NCBI RefSeq assembly: GCF_000169155.1
Contig: NZ_AAWL01000004.1
Coordinates: forward strand, 124,001-188,000
DNA length: 64,000 nt
Reading direction: 5' to 3'
Source of the DNA: Thermosinus carboxydivorans Nor1
GTDB lineage: Bacteria; Bacillota; Negativicutes; Sporomusales; Thermosinaceae
Under the pieces are notes generated by a model. The model was not told the origin of the DNA and ran no database searches. It saw only the letters and a program-made list of their open reading frames with translations. Numbering within the stretch: the stretch's first letter is position 1; the number at the start of each line of letters is the position of its first letter. The position numbers were made by a program, and so were the translations under genes. Of this stretch, positions 1 to 8,011 are shown piece by piece.

Positions 1-847
1 CTATACAAGTTGGACCGTCAGGCAAATCTTTTAGACATTGTTGAATGATATTGATAGCTTCCTGAATTTCCCTCAACCTGACCATGGCTCTTGCTCTAAC
101 ATCACAACCATTCTCTACAGCAACATTAAATTTAATCTTGTCATAAGCAGCATAAGGACTCTTGACCCGCACATCATAATCTATACCGGACCCTCTAGCT
201 ACAGGACCAACCACTCCATACCTGATAGCTTCCTCTTTAGGTAAAATCCCTGCTCCTTCAGTCCGAGCGCGAACAAATTTATTGTTCATATAAATATCAA
301 CAATTTCTTCCAATGGCTTCTTCAACATGTCCATCTGTTTCATCATATATTTAATTTTTTCATCAGAAAGGTCATATTTTACCCCGCCAATACAATTGGC
401 GGCCAAGTCCATCCGATTCCCATATACAGTCTCTTTAGTATCCTGGACTATCTCCCGTAACTCCATGACATGCATAAATAACGAATCAAAGCCAATGATA
501 TGCGCCAACATAGCGGCATTAAACAAGTTGGAGGCTATTCGTTTTATTTCATCAGCGATAACCCTTAAATATTCAGCTCTTTCCGGGATTTTAATGCCGG
601 CAATCTTCTCAAGGGCCATACAGTAGGTAAATGGGTGGTTGTTTGAACACAGAGAACAAACACGTTCAATTAAAGTTAAATTTTGGTATATATTGCGCTT
701 CATTACCAAATACTCCATGCCGCGATGCACATGACCTGCCGTTACATCCAGGCCCACGATAGTCTCTCCTTCAACCTGTACCCGGAAATACATCGGTTCT
801 TCCAGTGCCACATGCAGTGGGCCTACGGGGATTGTGTATGTGCTCAT
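1..847 (-). CDS. cooH: CO-induced [NiFe] hydrogenase large subunit CooH (partial, 3' end outside window)
   Basis: Catalytic subunit of a group 4 membrane-bound [NiFe] hydrogenase, carrying the Ni-Fe site that reduces protons to H2 on the cytoplasmic side. I translated the open frame from the ATG at 847 down to the window edge: about 282 residues starting MSTYTIPVGPLHV. The N-terminal metal-binding motif reads ERVCSLCSNNHPF, with the CxxC at residues 64 and 67; the C-terminal CxxC lies outside the window. The ATG overlaps the TGA of cooU (ATGA), so the two are translationally coupled. It is the last visible gene of a cooMKLXUH-ordered operon, and that order separates it from Ech or formate hydrogenlyase clusters. 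No internal stop is seen. Confidence 0.93.
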   Translation of the reverse strand, partial: MSTYTIPVGPLHVALEEPMYFRVQVEGETIVGLDVTAGHVHRGMEYLVMKRNIYQNLTLIERVCSLCSNNHPFTYCMALEKIAGIKIPERAEYLRVIADEIKRIASNLFNAAMLAHIIGFDSLFMHVMELREIVQDTKETVYGNRMDLAANCIGGVKYDLSDEKIKYMMKQMDMLKKPLEEIVDIYMNNKFVRARTEGAGILPKEEAIRYGVVGPVARGSGIDYDVRVKSPYAAYDKIKFNVAVENGCDVRARAMVRLREIQEAINIIQQCLKDLPDGPTCI

Positions 848-1386
848 TTAACATCCCCCTCCTGGGAAATAGCTGCAAGGACCTTTTCCCACAAAGTTTT
901 AGTGGTTGCTCCGTTCATAGCAACTGATAAAGGAATCAATTTATCCATTATTCCTTCATCAATAGTTTCATCGAGGAACAATCTCTTGGGATTGGGATGG
1001 CCGACCACTTTAATACCATATAATTCTTGCAATTCGCGTTCCGTCCAATCAGCACTCTTTAAAATCGGAGTAATGGAATTAACTTTGCCACTATCACGGG
1101 GAATTTCAATAGTAACTGTACAAGTACAACCATCCAGATCAAAATGGTATGCTATTTCATGTACTTCTCTCTGTTGAACATCTTTAGTTTTATAAGCCGT
1201 AATAGTGATTACCCGGCCGCCCAAGCTTGCCACTATCCAAGCCACATTTGTAATATGGTGGTGGTCACGGAGCCTGCACCAACCAGTAATAACTCCTTTA
1301 GAATCTGTCTCCCACCGCAAGGAGAATCCATCACCCATTGCCTCGGTTAATTTTTCCGTAAATTCCTCCTGAATGTTCCGCTTCAT
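844..1386 (-). CDS. cooU: CO-induced hydrogenase subunit CooU (NuoC/30-kDa-like)
   Basis: A 180-residue homologue of the complex I 30-kDa subunit (NuoC), which joins the large subunit to the rest of the hydrogenase. The family signature lies near residues 110-140 and reads SADWTERELQELYGIKV, followed by HPNPKRLFLDE. The N-terminal half is the usual mixed alpha/beta domain without cofactor ligands. The gene lies 16 bp after cooX and overlaps cooH by 4 bp. In formate hydrogenlyase this domain is fused to the large subunit; here it is separate, as in CO-induced hydrogenases. Confidence 0.9.
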   Translation of the reverse strand: MKRNIQEEFTEKLTEAMGDGFSLRWETDSKGVITGWCRLRDHHHITNVAWIVASLGGRVITITAYKTKDVQQREVHEIAYHFDLDGCTCTVTIEIPRDSGKVNSITPILKSADWTERELQELYGIKVVGHPNPKRLFLDETIDEGIMDKLIPLSVAMNGATTKTLWEKVLAAISQEGDVK

Positions 1387-1402: not shown

Positions 1403-1900
1403 TTATTGAAGGGCCCGTTCCTGGCGGCATTTGGGGCATAAATGCCTTAATTTTTCAATCTCCGTGTTAACTTGTTCAAAAGCTACGTTAAATAGTTCAG
1501 GAGCTATCGGCACCATAGGTGTATTACACCGGGCACAATTTACGTATTTAATGAAACCTTTTTCCACATATCGGTATTTGTCCTCTTGCCTGTGCGTTGT
1601 GTGATAATCCTCAGTCAAGCGAATTGCTTTAGTAGGGCAGTAATGTTCGCATAGACCGCAAAAAGTACATGTATTATGCCAAAGTATGAACTCCAGGCCG
1701 CTTTTGTCGGCGACTTCCCTGATTTGAATTGCTCCCCCTGCACAAACGTACTCACACATTCTACAGGCCACACAGGCCTTGGGATTATATTGGGCTTTCC
1801 CTCTCAGTCCCTTGGGAACAAAAGTTTCACCGAAGGGATAAGGGTCAGTAGACGGTCTCTTAAACAAATTGCGAATAGCTATTTTTAAAAAAGAAGCCAT
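1403..1900 (-). CDS. cooX: CO-induced hydrogenase ferredoxin-like subunit CooX (2x[4Fe-4S])
   Basis: Polyferredoxin-type electron carrier between the incoming ferredoxin and the small subunit. Two cluster motifs are visible, CVACRMCEYVC and CTFCGLCEHYC, each followed by the usual later cysteine or proline. A C-terminal extension adds two more CxxC pairs (CARC and CPKC), a possible zinc-ribbon or rubredoxin-like knuckle. I start at the ATG at 1900 (MASFLKIAI) because AGGAG sits 8 bases upstream; an upstream in-frame start would run into cooL. The gene follows cooL by 13 bp. Confidence 0.9.
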   Translation of the reverse strand: MASFLKIAIRNLFKRPSTDPYPFGETFVPKGLRGKAQYNPKACVACRMCEYVCAGGAIQIREVADKSGLEFILWHNTCTFCGLCEHYCPTKAIRLTEDYHTTHRQEDKYRYVEKGFIKYVNCARCNTPMVPIAPELFNVAFEQVNTEIEKLRHLCPKCRQERALQ

Positions 1901-1913
1901 GGGTAACTCTCCT

Positions 1914-2345
1914 TTACAGCCTGGTTTCCCAAATTTTGATGGCTTCAATTATCCCATCAATAATCGCCTGTGGTCTGGGCGGACAGCCAGGCACATTTAC
2001 ATCTACCGGAATAAAGTTGTCAATAGGCCCGGCAATAGCATAACTGTCTCTAAACACCCCTCCAGATATTGGGCATACTCCTATGGCTACCGTCACTTTA
2101 GGGTCGGGAATTTCCTCGTAAAGACGCAAAACCTTTTCCTTAACCCGGACAGTAAGAGGTCCGGTAATCAACACGATATCAGCATGCTTTGGACTTCCAC
2201 AATATTTACAGCCTAAACGTTCAACATCATAACGAGGGATACATGCCGTAGTAGCCAGCTCCACATCACACCCGTTACAGGAGCCCGCATTTATGCGATA
2301 CAACCACGGTGATTTTTTGGCGATTTTGGGCAATAGCTTTTTCAT
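1914..2345 (-). CDS. cooL: CO-induced hydrogenase small subunit CooL
   Basis: Small (NuoB/HycG-like) subunit of the group 4 [NiFe] hydrogenase, 143 residues, binding the proximal [4Fe-4S] cluster next to the Ni-Fe site. Visible ligands are CNGCDVE near residue 23, then a cysteine in GVCPISGG and another in VPGCPPRP. An extra CKYC lies in the middle of the protein. There is no Tat signal or extra cluster domain, as expected for a cytoplasm-facing energy-converting enzyme. It sits 16 bp after cooK with a clear GGGAGG ribosome site. Confidence 0.93.
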   Translation of the reverse strand: MKKLLPKIAKKSPWLYRINAGSCNGCDVELATTACIPRYDVERLGCKYCGSPKHADIVLITGPLTVRVKEKVLRLYEEIPDPKVTVAIGVCPISGGVFRDSYAIAGPIDNFIPVDVNVPGCPPRPQAIIDGIIEAIKIWETRL

Positions 2346-2361: not shown

Positions 2362-3327
2362 TTACCCTTTTAACAACGTTAAAACCAAGCTGATTAACGC
2401 CAGTGCTGTAGGATACTTTAGATAAAATTTAAAGGCCTGGTCTATTCGAACCCTTCCTGTACTGGCGCGAACAACTGTAATAGAAATTACCATTAAAATT
2501 AAATATTTTAAGATGTACCACAATAGGTTAAGCAACATGTTTTCACCCAGAGGTGTCGGGAAAAAAAGCGCTATGGCTAAACCCAGTACCACAACCATTT
2601 TTAAGGAGCTTGTTAGTTTAAATAAAGCCAAAGAGGTTCCAGAATATTCCAAAATAGGACCTTCGACAATTTCCGTTTCTGCCTCAGGAATATCAAAGGG
2701 AACTACCCCCATGTTACCTGGAATAAAGGCTAGAAAAGCCAACAGAGCCGGTAACATGGTGTAATCAAAAAGCAATGCTCCGTTTTCCAGTTGGTACCTC
2801 ACAATTTCACTTAAAGAAAAAGTAGCAATTCCACCCGTTGCCAATCCAACTTTTAAAGCAACGGTTACCAGTACTACCAGTAACGGCAGCTCATAGGACA
2901 TCATCATGACCATTTCTCTGGAAAAGCCTACAGCCCCAAAGGGTGAACTAGAAGCAGAACCACCGATCATCAAGGCAATGGCAGGTAATGACAGCAAATA
3001 AAGCAAAACCAGCAAATCTCCCGAAAATTTAAAACCTTGGTATACGCCAGCAATAGGTATCAAAGTCACGGCTACCATCATCCCTGCAAACCCCAGCAAT
3101 GGCGCTAACCTGAAAGCCTGCAGATGCGCAGTCTCCGGCACAACTATCTCCTTCCTGGTTAGTTTAACCAGGTCAATAACGGGCTGGTAAAGAGGGGGCC
3201 CAACCCGCCTCTGTAAGCGGGCAACAAATTTACGGTCAATTCCCATAAGAAACAAGCCAACGACTATTGCAAACAAGCCTCCGGGAAAGAACAACAAATT
3301 AATGATTAGTTGTACAAGATCGTTCAC
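2362..3327 (-). CDS. cooK: CO-induced hydrogenase membrane subunit CooK (NuoH/HycD-like)
   Basis: Integral membrane subunit of 321 residues homologous to NuoH/HycD/EchB, forming the junction between the soluble hydrogenase arm and the ion-pumping membrane arm. Roughly eight hydrophobic segments are visible. Conserved loop features include RKEIVVPE near residue 60, EMVMMMSYELPL, and FDIPEAETEIVEGP near residue 215, the acidic loop typical of this family. It starts with GTG, 2 bp after the cooM stop, with GAGGGGGTG as ribosome site. Confidence 0.92.
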   Translation of the reverse strand: MNDLVQLIINLLFFPGGLFAIVVGLFLMGIDRKFVARLQRRVGPPLYQPVIDLVKLTRKEIVVPETAHLQAFRLAPLLGFAGMMVAVTLIPIAGVYQGFKFSGDLLVLLYLLSLPAIALMIGGSASSSPFGAVGFSREMVMMMSYELPLLVVLVTVALKVGLATGGIATFSLSEIVRYQLENGALLFDYTMLPALLAFLAFIPGNMGVVPFDIPEAETEIVEGPILEYSGTSLALFKLTSSLKMVVVLGLAIALFFPTPLGENMLLNLLWYILKYLILMVISITVVRASTGRVRIDQAFKFYLKYPTALALISLVLTLLKG

Positions 3328-3329
3328 AA

Positions 3330-6300
3330 TTACACCCCCTCACCCAGACCGGTAATCCGGTGTAAAACTTTAATGCACTGTTTAACCAGGCCTTTTGGCG
3401 ATTCATAAAGATTATGAGAATTAACATGCACCTCTTCGGCTGTTAAATCAGTTACCCCACAAGTATAGATTTTTGTATATCTGATTTTCCCATTGCTAAT
3501 AAAGTAGACACTAACACCTGCAATAAAGGCTATTGCCAATACTGCAGCGATAACTCCGGCATTCCAAGTTCCCAGGCCAGAATCAATCCCGAAAAGCGAA
3601 ACTGAAACCGGTGTAAGGCCCAACCATCTCTCTATGGCAACAATAGTAGTAAGTGGTACCCCCGGGAAAATTCCAAACACTATACACAAAACAGCCAAAA
3701 TCACCATAGGAAATTGCATTGTCCAAGGTGCTTCAGTTACATTCTCTAACTCCTTCGGTAATTGCCCGAAAAAGGCAGAATGTAAAAATTTAAGAAAAGA
3801 AGCTAAGGTCAAAACACTTGCTAACAATGAGAATAACGCTAAAAACACATATCCTTTCTCCATGGCAGCTTCATAGATTATCCATTTAGAGGTAAAACCA
3901 TTAAAAGGCGGAATGCCGGCAATAGAAAATGCCCCAATCGCAAAGGTCCCGAGAGTTATCGGCATTTTCCTGCCAATTCCTCCTAACCTGTCCAGGTTTT
4001 CAATACCGGTTTTCACCATAATCGCACCGGCAACTAAGAAAAGCAGGTTCTTAAACAGCATATGGTTAACTAAATGCAATAATCCTCCAGCCATACCTAA
4101 AGAAGAACCCAAGCTGACTCCTAAGATGATATAACCCATTTGGCTTACCGTATGATAAATAAGCAGGCGTTTCATACCACTTTGCAGCAGAGCCAGTGCC
4201 GCAGCCATTAAGATTGTTAAGCCGCTTACCCAGGCAACTATATACATCAGGCTGGGCGTCTCTCCTGACAAGCCTAACTTGCTTATAAGAGAAATGCCCC
4301 CAAACACATAAAATAATTTAATCATCCCAAATGGTGCACTTTTTAAAAGCACGGAAGAAATATAGCCACTGACCGGTGTAGGTGCTGTTGGTGGATGCAT
4401 TTGATAGTCGATGCGAAAAGGTAACATAGCCGCTTTCATGGCAAAGCCAATCAACATCATGATTAAACCAAACGCCACCAGACCTGTCGGCACGGCACTT
4501 AACCGCTCTGCCAGTTCACTCATGGCAAAGGTGCCAGTGCTGGCTGTTAATACAAGTAGTCCTAAAAACATCAAACTGGCTCCAGCATAATTAAAAATGA
4601 AGTATTTAAAACCTTCCTGTAATGCCTCCCTGGTTTCCTCATGAATAATCACAAAGTACAGAGTCCAGCTGCTCATGATTTCCCAGAAAGCAAAGAAACT
4701 GAAAAGCTCTTTGCTCATCGCCACCCCCAGAAGGCCGCCGATCATTAAAAGGAAGAAAGCGTAAAAGCGATTTTGAGCGTGGCCGTGATCCATATAACCC
4801 AGGGAATAAAATATATTTAAAACTCCAATAAAGGCGATGAGTAATGCAAAGGTTCGGGAAAAAATATCAAAACCGTAAGAATAAGCAAACAATGTTATCA
4901 ATGTTGCCACCATTGTCGCGACTGCTAACCAGCCGCTGACCCTGGCCGAAACTCTTCCCAAAAAGTAAGTAACCAGAGCGCCTACCATTGGGATTACTGC
5001 CATCAGAGGCCAAGCGATAGTAACATTAGGAATAGCAGTTATAGCCATATGTCCATTGGCGGCAATCATATCGACCACCGGCTTAACTAAAGCCAGACCT
5101 GCTTGCGGATACAAGCCATTAAAAACAGTCAGACCCGTTAGAATCCCAACTGGAATCAACATGGTAATAGGAGCTTCCTTAAGAGCAGGGCCCTCATACT
5201 TTTCAAAGAAAATAACCCTAACCAGTTTCAGATAATAAAAAGCGCCAATAATACTGCCTAGAAGAATTAAACCCGCCACTGCCAGATGACCGGATTGTAC
5301 ACTGGCGTAAAGCATCAAAAACTTGCTGATAAATCCGTTGAAAGGCGGCAAGCCCATTATGGCCAATATGCCAATACTAAAACACAATGACGTTACAGGC
5401 ATTACCCGGCCGATACCTTTGAATTTAGCAATTTCCTGACTCTTCAAGCGATAAATTAAAGCACCCACACCCAGAAACAAGAGATTTTTCATAATAGCAT
5501 GATTCAAAACATGATAAAGAGCACCAACAAGGCTCAAATAAGTGCCTATTCCCAAAGTGACCGCTATCTCGCCCACCTGGGCCATAGTTGAATAAGCCAA
5601 CATTTTTTTTATGTCGGTCTGCCGGAGGGCCATAATTTCACCGTACAAAAGGGTCAATGCCCCAAGCACGGAAATGATAAATCCAATGGTAGAAAACTGA
5701 CCAGTAGTGCCCAACTCAGTCAGCAAACCTGCACCAAAAACAACAAAGAGAATACGTACAAGTCCGTAAACACCGGTTTTGGTCAAAATCCCTGACATAG
5801 GTGCCGAAATGGATGAAGGTGCTACAGGGTGAGCATCAGGCAACCAACTATGCAGCGGCACTAAACCTGTTTTAACACCAAAACCGATTATAAACATTCC
5901 CAAAACTGCTAGCATAAGGCTTGGGGATAACAGTTTTAAGTTGGAAGAAATTGCCGCCATATCGAAGGTTCCAATCTTTACATGCAATGTTAAAATTGCA
6001 AAATGCATAATATAAGCGCCGGAAGTACACATGATAAAATATTTGAAACCGGCTTGCAGCGCCTTTTCAGTTTGTTCCTGAATGACCAAAAAGTAAGAAG
6101 TCCAGGTCATTAATTCCCAGTAGACGTAAAAATTCCCCAGGTGCTTGCTAGTTGTCAACCCCAGCAAAGTGCCTAACATTAAGAGCAAGAAGAAAAAGTA
6201 ACGATTTGTATACGGCTTATTCTTTAAATAACCCACAGAGTAAACAGTGACCAGGAAAGCGATAAAAGCCATAATCAGAGCAAAAAATCTAGACAGACTG

Positions 6301-7151
6301 TCAAAATCGCCACTTTGCCAAGTCAAGTATACCGCTGTACCGGTAATGGCGACCGCCAGAATATTACGCAAGGCCACCGAAAAACGCCCGCCCAAATAAA
6401 CAATAAATCCGCCCACATAGGGAACGAGAACCAGAATGGACCAAGGTGATTCAAAGGCAGGTAGTTGCGCAGATTTCCCTGATAAGACAGCAGTTATATG
6501 CTCAACATTATGAATGAAAGGCTCCGGTAACAAGCCCATAAAAGCGGTGAGCCCACTAAGGGCCAGTATAACTACCAGCAAAACAGGAGAAACTTCTCTG
6601 ACTTTTTCTGCCCAGACCCCGTCTTGAGCAGGTTTTTCGAAACACAGTTTTTGAAAGACCAGAAGGAAATACATTGCCTCAATGATACTGCCTAACGTGG
6701 CCAGAGCAGCATAAAACCAATGACCGCTGGCAATGGCTGCATAAATAATTAAAAATTTACTAATCGAACCCTTAAATGGTGATAAGCCCATTACCGAGAA
6801 CAAACCAAAACCGAACAAGGTTGCTGTAACCGGCATGGCCTTACCTATACCTTTGAGCTTTTCAATACTGTCAGATTGTCCTCGGGCAATAAGTGCTGCC
6901 GCGGCAACAAAGACCAATGCTCGCATTACTATTTGATATTCCAAATGCAACAGAGCTCCCGAGATACCTTCATAAGTACCAAGGCCAAGTCCCAGTAGAA
7001 CATATCCAATTTCTGCAATACTGGAAATAGTTATTAAGCGAATGAGATTTTTCATCTGCTTCAGCGCAATCAGTTCACCAACCAAAATAACTATCGCGCC
7101 AAACAAAGCTAATACAGATGACTCATTAAATAATAGAGAACTAAAATTCAC
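3330..7151 (-). CDS. cooM: CO-induced hydrogenase giant antiporter-like subunit CooM
   Basis: A 1273-residue membrane protein of the NuoL/M/N-Mrp antiporter family, the ion-translocating arm of the complex. It holds two and a half modules in tandem. Residues 1-230 resemble the C-terminal part of one module. Residues 240-690 form a full module with the TM5 glutamate E346 (YWELM) and TM7 lysine K427 (GVKTGLVPLHSWLPDAHP). Residues 700-1200 form a third module with E824 (FWEIM) and K906 (FAMKAAMLPF) but without the HSWLPDAH loop. The soluble tail includes IYTCGV. The size agrees with the large CooM known from other CO oxidisers. Start is GTG behind GAGGAGG; an overlapping ATG is followed at once by TGA. 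It is the first gene of the operon. Confidence 0.92.
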   Translation of the reverse strand: MNFSSLLFNESSVLALFGAIVILVGELIALKQMKNLIRLITISSIAEIGYVLLGLGLGTYEGISGALLHLEYQIVMRALVFVAAAALIARGQSDSIEKLKGIGKAMPVTATLFGFGLFSVMGLSPFKGSISKFLIIYAAIASGHWFYAALATLGSIIEAMYFLLVFQKLCFEKPAQDGVWAEKVREVSPVLLVVILALSGLTAFMGLLPEPFIHNVEHITAVLSGKSAQLPAFESPWSILVLVPYVGGFIVYLGGRFSVALRNILAVAITGTAVYLTWQSGDFDSLSRFFALIMAFIAFLVTVYSVGYLKNKPYTNRYFFFLLLMLGTLLGLTTSKHLGNFYVYWELMTWTSYFLVIQEQTEKALQAGFKYFIMCTSGAYIMHFAILTLHVKIGTFDMAAISSNLKLLSPSLMLAVLGMFIIGFGVKTGLVPLHSWLPDAHPVAPSSISAPMSGILTKTGVYGLVRILFVVFGAGLLTELGTTGQFSTIGFIISVLGALTLLYGEIMALRQTDIKKMLAYSTMAQVGEIAVTLGIGTYLSLVGALYHVLNHAIMKNLLFLGVGALIYRLKSQEIAKFKGIGRVMPVTSLCFSIGILAIMGLPPFNGFISKFLMLYASVQSGHLAVAGLILLGSIIGAFYYLKLVRVIFFEKYEGPALKEAPITMLIPVGILTGLTVFNGLYPQAGLALVKPVVDMIAANGHMAITAIPNVTIAWPLMAVIPMVGALVTYFLGRVSARVSGWLAVATMVATLITLFAYSYGFDIFSRTFALLIAFIGVLNIFYSLGYMDHGHAQNRFYAFFLLMIGGLLGVAMSKELFSFFAFWEIMSSWTLYFVIIHEETREALQEGFKYFIFNYAGASLMFLGLLVLTASTGTFAMSELAERLSAVPTGLVAFGLIMMLIGFAMKAAMLPFRIDYQMHPPTAPTPVSGYISSVLLKSAPFGMIKLFYVFGGISLISKLGLSGETPSLMYIVAWVSGLTILMAAALALLQSGMKRLLIYHTVSQMGYIILGVSLGSSLGMAGGLLHLVNHMLFKNLLFLVAGAIMVKTGIENLDRLGGIGRKMPITLGTFAIGAFSIAGIPPFNGFTSKWIIYEAAMEKGYVFLALFSLLASVLTLASFLKFLHSAFFGQLPKELENVTEAPWTMQFPMVILAVLCIVFGIFPGVPLTTIVAIERWLGLTPVSVSLFGIDSGLGTWNAGVIAAVLAIAFIAGVSVYFISNGKIRYTKIYTCGVTDLTAEEVHVNSHNLYESPKGLVKQCIKVLHRITGLGEGV

Positions 7152-7188
7152 ATTTTCTACCTCCTCGTATAATTAGTTTTGAAATCTA

Positions 7189-7229
7189 CCGGATAGTAAA
7201 ATTCCAGTTAGGTTGGATTTATTATCCGG
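7189..7229 (-). promoter_or_regulatory. Stem-loop in the cooM 5' leader
   Basis: An inverted repeat CCGGATA...TATCCGG with an inner TCCA...TGGA stem lies in the predicted untranslated leader, about 40 bases before the cooM start. No T-run follows on the sense strand, so it is not an obvious terminator. It could stabilise the long coo transcript or affect translation. I do not recognise a known riboswitch. Confidence 0.45.
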
Positions 7230-7302
7230 CAATTTTTTGATTGAATCTCAGACTTGCTTGCCAAAGCCGATACCTTGTTTTTTTGTGTGATTTTTCACTT
7301 TA

Positions 7303-7345
7303 AATATATCATTGTCGCTCCTTCATTCCTGTCGCTAAGATGACA
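7303..7345 (-). promoter_or_regulatory. CooA-type CO-responsive promoter of the coo operon
   Basis: Read in the direction of cooM, positions 7345-7330 are TGTCA-TCTTAG-CGACA, identical in both half-sites to the CooA recognition pattern TGTCA-N6-CGACA known from Rhodospirillum rubrum. A -10 box TATATT lies at 7308-7303, so a start near 7296 puts the box centre about 41.5 bases upstream, the class II position where a CRP-family activator overlaps -35. No good -35 hexamer is present, as expected for activator-dependent transcription. The leader to the cooM start is about 145 bases. Confidence 0.82.
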
Positions 7346-7534
7346 ACAAGCTCCGACATGCTAAAATTAAACATTGCCATCCCCCTTTCCTAAATACATT
7401 ATTACAAAAACTCAATTTTAAGACAACTATATTTTTACAGATAAGACCATCCTTAACCATTGCTTTATACGACCATAGCAAGAACAAACAGCCAAGCCAA
7501 AAGTCATTTGTGAATAGTTTGTGAATTACGATCA

Positions 7535-7560
7535 ATAAAAAACTCCCGGTTAACCGGGAG
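7535..7560 (-). terminator. Terminator of the thioredoxin gene
   Basis: The perfect stem CTCCCGGTTAACCGGGAG (7543-7560) is followed on the minus strand by a T-run. It lies 8 bp after the thioredoxin stop and isolates the coo promoter from upstream transcription. Confidence 0.88.
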
Positions 7561-7567
7561 TCGCTTT

Positions 7568-7891
7568 TTACAGTGCATTTTCCAGAGCAGCGCTAAGCTC
7601 CTGCCGTGGCCGGTACCCAACTATCCGGTTCATCTCTTGGCCATTTTTAATAACCAACAGTGTCGGTACCCCCATAACCTGATAGTCATTGGCCAGACCG
7701 GGTTGGTCATCAACATTTACTTTGACCACATAAGCCCGCCCGGCAAAAGTTTCGGCGACAGCTTCCACTTCAGGCCCTACCATCTTACAAGGACCGCACC
7801 AAGGCGCCCAGAAATCAACAAGTACTGGTTTGTCAGCTTTAAGTACCTTTTCCTCAAATTCCTCTCGGCTGGTTATATTTATTACACTCAC
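7568..7891 (-). CDS. trxA: Thioredoxin
   Basis: A 107-residue cytoplasmic thiol-disulfide oxidoreductase. The active site WCGPC is at residues 31-35, preceded by VDFWAP, and the cis-proline loop reads MGVPTLLV. I start at the GTG at 7891 (VSVINITSREEF) because AAGGAG sits 9 bases upstream and this gives the usual thioredoxin length; a longer in-frame extension would add 17 low-complexity residues. It has its own terminator. Its closeness to the hydrogenase operon does not by itself show a functional link. Confidence 0.93.
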   Translation of the reverse strand: MSVINITSREEFEEKVLKADKPVLVDFWAPWCGPCKMVGPEVEAVAETFAGRAYVVKVNVDDQPGLANDYQVMGVPTLLVIKNGQEMNRIVGYRPRQELSAALENAL

Positions 7892-8011
7892 TGTTCCCAA
7901 CTCCTTTCCCGTCCCCCCTACGGTGGGGGTGGTGATTCTCATTTTAATAGCCTTTTTTTAGCATGTCAATTTATTTTGCCATTTGCTATATTTAACTTTT
8001 TAATAACTCGA

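Follow-up and report, generated by a model that had tools for sequence, protein, structure and literature searches.

The window, which is the whole 64,000-nucleotide stretch of Thermosinus carboxydivorans Nor1 analysed here (part of contig C4), begins inside a coo-type CODH/energy-converting hydrogenase operon, whose genes are read from the minus strand:

3330 to 7151, minus strand: cooM, a 1273-aa antiporter-like subunit, with a GTG start after GAGGAGG
2362 to 3327, minus strand: cooK (NuoH-like)
1914 to 2345, minus strand: cooL (NuoB-like small subunit)
1403 to 1948, minus strand: cooX (ferredoxin-like), whose listed start overlaps cooL
844 to 1386, minus strand: cooU (NuoC-like)
1 to 847, minus strand: cooH, hydrogenase large subunit, with 233 more bases beyond the window (the gene is C4:123768-124847)

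The preliminary description saw here a complete coo hydrogenase operon in a diderm of Gram-positive lineage. The host is indeed of the Negativicutes type and the gene order MKLXUH is as described, but the window does not take in all of cooH, and beyond its edge the operon goes on with hypA, cooF, cooS and cooC, giving the order cooMKLXUH-hypA-cooFSC downstream of a CooA box. Beside the 3' end of the cluster, some 7.7 kb of genes found in a genome of the same genus (G001) are apparently missing (L003 6691-6764 against G001:C4:267-8043).

The region in front of cooM holds the following promoter elements:

7330 to 7345, minus strand: CooA box TGTCATCTTAGCGACA, centred at 7337.5, about -41.5; the identical 16-mer stands before Carboxydocella cooM
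7303 to 7308, minus strand: -10-like hexamer TATATT with TGA before it (extended -10), 21 bp from the box; predicted start about 7296
7151 to 7296, minus strand: leader running from the predicted start to the cooM GTG; it exceeds that of Carboxydocella by about 80 bases and holds a CCGGATA/TATCCGG hairpin

Read from 7345 to 7330 on the minus strand, TGTCATCTTAGCGACA is an exact match to TGTCA-N6-CGACA, and thereby to the CooA-box consensus TGTCR-N6-YGACR as quoted in PMC6085454. The palindrome lies over the -35 position, where the hexamer CAGGAA is poor; a usable -10 follows at a spacing of 21 bp, and the start predicted near 7296 puts the centre of the box at -41.5. Exact half-sites, centre and weak -35 region had all been proposed beforehand, and each was borne out. 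No other match occurs in the 64-kb window, even at one mismatch, a tolerance at which shuffled sequences average 2.5; the match is informative because of its position, and not because of its rarity in 64 kb. If all bases are taken as equally likely, the chance of finding an exact match no more than about 400 bp from the start of a given operon is roughly 1e-3. In the 2.89-Mb genome exact matches number two: the search for more copies of the 16-mer, which the preliminary description had suggested, yields one further site, at C8:75084, but this lies inside an ORF and was taken as a chance occurrence on that account. Around a second full-length cooS (C7:79144), no box was found at up to one mismatch across that 13-kb region.

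Support for the spacing comes from other genomes. Nine of ten box promoters (from nine loci, this window included) have a -10-like hexamer at a spacing of exactly 21 bases, against a background of about 0.03 per position and site; the ten pairs are partly related and so are not ten independent observations, and the cooM N-termini at L030, L033 and L076 are just 42-48% identical to that of the window. Given this recurrent spacing and the identical Carboxydocella 16-mer, we regard the assignment as a CooA-type class II promoter, of an ordinary and known kind, as well supported by sequence comparison. Two further details were seen in this region. An extra half-site, GCGACA (7313-7318, minus strand), lies 17 bases after the right half-site of the box, in the spacer before the -10, and is conserved as GTGACA in Carboxydocella (L024); and the leader hairpin CCGGATA...TATCCGG (7182-7236, minus strand; folding z-score -2.2) falls in the stretch of about 80 bases that Carboxydocella is without.

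A scan for CooH across 84,980 species genomes returned 23 loci, the closest being that of Carboxydocella thermautotrophica, whose proteins from cooM to cooC are 89-98% identical to those encoded here, in the same gene order, and whose 16-base box and 21-bp spacing to the -10 are the same. The order in that genome is cooA - box - cooSC - box - cooM operon, and its annotation describes both CooA boxes within cooA-cooSC-cooMKLXUHhypAcooFSC (PMC6085454). Whilst cooA and cooSC are intact and adjacent in Carboxydocella, here they are separated from the operon, cooSC being a relic and cooA split by an insertion sequence; likewise, the DNA upstream of the box is here that of tatA, and the leader is the longer one noted above. 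A CooA box upstream of cooM is also common to Rhodospirillum rubrum and Carboxydothermus (PMC4652020, PMC6557876), which, however, have a working CooA, and no intact one was found here.

The features upstream of the box belong to a different gene neighbourhood:

7568 to 7942, minus strand: trx (thioredoxin-like), neighbour of tatA in G001
7541 to 7562, minus strand: intrinsic terminator of trx, upstream of the tatA promoter and conserved in G001
7398 to 7426, minus strand: predicted promoter of tatA, captured here, reading TTGTCT-17-AATAAT, its second hexamer preceded by TG; conserved in G001
7309 to 7374, minus strand: truncated tatA frame, 12 tatA codons and then coo promoter DNA, reading MFNFSMSELVVILATGMKERQ to a stop
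7337 to 7345, minus strand: TGTCATCTT, nine bases common to both reciprocal junctions (window, contig C43 and G001 compared)

G001 lacks both the coo hydrogenase and CooA, and its trx-tatA pair is intact, tatA coming directly after trx. On C4, the trx side of this pair (the tatA promoter, its ribosome site and the first 12 codons) abuts the coo box: identity to G001 is 88% as far as ...CTTGTTGTCATCTT, where the sequence changes to ...AGCGACAGG, the right half of the box. The counterpart is on C43, where a cooC relic and the DNA downstream of it, TTTTTTTGTCTTTGTGTCATCTT (in Carboxydocella TTTTTTTCTTTGTGTCATCTT), lead into GATTATTGCTCTGG, the rest of tatA. Since both junctions share TGTCATCTT, the joint of a reciprocal rearrangement lies within the CooA box, which nevertheless came through whole, and the left half-site of the box doubles as tatA codons. 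The DNA that follows cooC on C4 is native, and it is collinear with another contig of G001, one that begins at the place where the C40-side flank would be compared. This favours a rearrangement involving two sites of the chromosome and speaks against a simple insertion at tatA, whether of the cluster or of a circular coo element. Native TatA matches PF02416. The displaced tatA on C43 (L022, 1183-1383) still has a frame for the TatA domain, with another N-terminus in place of its own (LWRFFCLC-VILIIALVVFG...) and a PF02416 match at 1.4e-19, and two tatA-like paralogues occur elsewhere in the genome. No terminator was predicted between the tatA promoter and the coo operon, the only nearby one on the minus strand being that of trx at 7562-7541, and we infer that the operon can be read from the captured promoter without any need for CO.

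What, then, of the activator? The genome, a draft of 2,889,774 bases in 49 contigs and 96.6% complete, was searched with the CooA of R. rubrum and a Carboxydothermus CooA. The preliminary description had predicted control by a CooA-like sensor and proposed a search for cooA; a homologue is present, but it is disrupted. The single strong match lies on contig C40 and is 71% identical to C. hydrogenoformans CooA-1 as far as LGAT, past which the homology ends and the frame closes as LGATPKTHF...; the 3' part of the gene (STRQTVSVLLNDLKK...), with RQTVS, is on contig C43, beyond the insertion sequence. Both contigs end in the same 1608-bp element, oriented as for one insertion, and because they end inside it the C40-C43 link is a presumed one. 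The element belongs to the IS110 family, encoding a Transposase_20-type protein (PF02371 match) and showing at both of its junctions with cooA the CT core described for this family (PMC11208160). The genome carries it in at least 11 copies with a reported identity of 100%, many of them at contig ends, and two stand in tandem with CTACCCT between them (G000 C3:336-2730, L078).

The element separates the two helices of the helix-turn-helix immediately ahead of the recognition helix, so that the C40 frame retains the heme and dimer part (MPTR..., GDIYSTHT, including the ligand His and N-terminal Pro) and loses the recognition helix; no single frame carries a complete helix-turn-helix with RQTxS. 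Against Carboxydocella, the two parts of cooA have dN/dS values of 0.05 and 0.11, so that the gene was under constraint until recently and its loss is recent. That this is the cluster's own cooA is argued by synteny with Carboxydocella and by the adjoining cooSC, which has shrunk to cooS and cooC relics. In an alignment of CooA sequences (L024, L025, L027, L036, L076, L081 and C40), Ser replaces the heme-region Cys in most Firmicutes proteins (GDxxSTH vs GDxFCxH in R. rubrum and Carboxydothermus) and the His is invariant; we rejected the Cys-to-Ser change as a sign of cooA decay, Carboxydocella and most other aligned Firmicutes CooAs also having Ser. The papers of Techtmann (2011, 2012) are reportedly central for the CODH genes and CooA of this organism, and the disruption of cooA may be noted there.

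No intact CooA was found in the draft assembly, and no RcoM either: the four LytTR proteins encoded all have an N-terminal response-regulator receiver sequence in place of the heme-PAS domain that RcoM combines with LytTR. They are thus response regulators, and RcoM was rejected as an alternative sensor. In the assembly the operator is intact, but the activator that belongs to it is not. With CooA split, the LytTR proteins not RcoM and a second, tatA promoter predicted, CO-dependent expression is no longer the default expectation, and the earlier interpretation of regulation is only partly supported.

We consider it probable, though well short of certain, that the coo box has become an orphan operator, in an operon that lies behind a captured tatA promoter and can be read independently of CO. 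P_coo would have arrived with a cluster like that of Carboxydocella, acquired horizontally in the order cooA-cooSC-[box]-cooMKLXUHhypAFSC; afterwards, a reciprocal rearrangement at TGTCATCTT would have joined the tatA promoter, ribosome site and 12 codons to the coo promoter, leaving cooA and cooSC beside the rest of tatA, where cooSC would then have decayed and where cooA would recently have been split by the IS110-family element between its two DNA-binding helices. Predicted transcripts from near 7391 would pass through the box and reach cooM after a leader of roughly 240 bases, making coo expression from P_tatA largely independent of CO. Gain of the tatA promoter may have made cooA dispensable, in an order of events that we infer from the present arrangement. 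We hold more tentatively, at somewhat below an even chance, the fuller scenario in which the box itself served as the microhomology joint that put coo behind a constitutive tatA promoter and so freed CooA from selection, cooA being lost while the operator stayed perfect, to leave a CO-blind carboxydotroph.

Could the operon nonetheless still be under the control of a working CooA, either because the insertion is lacking in most cells or is an artefact of culture, or because another cooA lies in an assembly gap? The box is perfectly conserved, which could mean that it is still in use, and the codons of cooA bear the mark of purifying selection; hydrogen production driven by CO is a known trait of the host (PMC6687684), and a draft of 49 contigs at 96.6% completeness leaves room for an unbroken cooA that fell into a gap or is carried by some of the cells only. 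However, both junctions between the insertion sequence and cooA are assembled and no intact copy accompanies them, and the gene that is disrupted is, by its place beside the cooSC relics and by Carboxydocella synteny, the cluster's own. CO-dependent expression through CooA is thus, in our judgement, unlikely, at perhaps one chance in five. Physiology does not discriminate here: according to reports cited in PMC4652020 and PMC6687684, T. carboxydivorans grows by oxidising CO and forms H2, and such growth fits constitutive and regulated expression alike.

Rather less probable is that another regulator has taken over and that expression still responds to CO indirectly. Precedents are reported in PMC7306483: a response to CO in carboxydotrophs for which no CO sensor is known, with another regulator proposed (Moorella, T. 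kivui), and control through Rex (Calderihabitans). The genome does encode further Crp/Fnr proteins besides the four LytTR response regulators; yet the recognition helices of the two other clear Crp/Fnr proteins read RETVT and RSAVT where CooA has RQTxS, and no Rex site (TTGTGA-N6-TCACAA) was seen by eye in the leader or promoter. Least of all do we favour an artefact of assembly, in which the tatA-coo and cooA-IS junctions would be chimaeric joins. Such joins might be suspected in a draft whose contigs often end within IS copies, but the tatA-coo joint lies in only 9 shared bases and involves no long repeat, each of the two reciprocal products is assembled on a contig of its own, and the IS junctions have the expected CT core in the same orientation, all of which makes this explanation very improbable.

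Loss of a cluster's CooA has a precedent by analogy in Carboxydothermus pertinax, from whose CODH-I/ECH cluster CooA-1 and CooS-I were lost, CooA-2 being kept (PMC6557876). Both organisms are hydrogenogenic carboxydotrophs in which the cluster's own CooA is gone and the box before the hydrogenase genes remains; in contrast to C. pertinax, no second CooA was found here, and the operon has gained the promoter of another gene in addition. What is new is the anatomy around the promoter: an operator still whole after serving as a recombination joint, an activator gene interrupted by an insertion sequence, and a promoter captured from another gene.

Operator searches are often used to assign regulons, and an ideal-looking operator such as this one, even with comparative genomics in its favour, would mislead if the gene of its regulator were left unchecked. 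If the proposed history is true, a well-known hydrogenogenic carboxydotroph would have a rewired, possibly constitutive CO operon, and its CO metabolism may be expressed in the absence of CO. This would be a natural example of a horizontally acquired, regulated operon escaping its regulator, and would bear on the use of the strain as a CooA-regulated producer of hydrogen.
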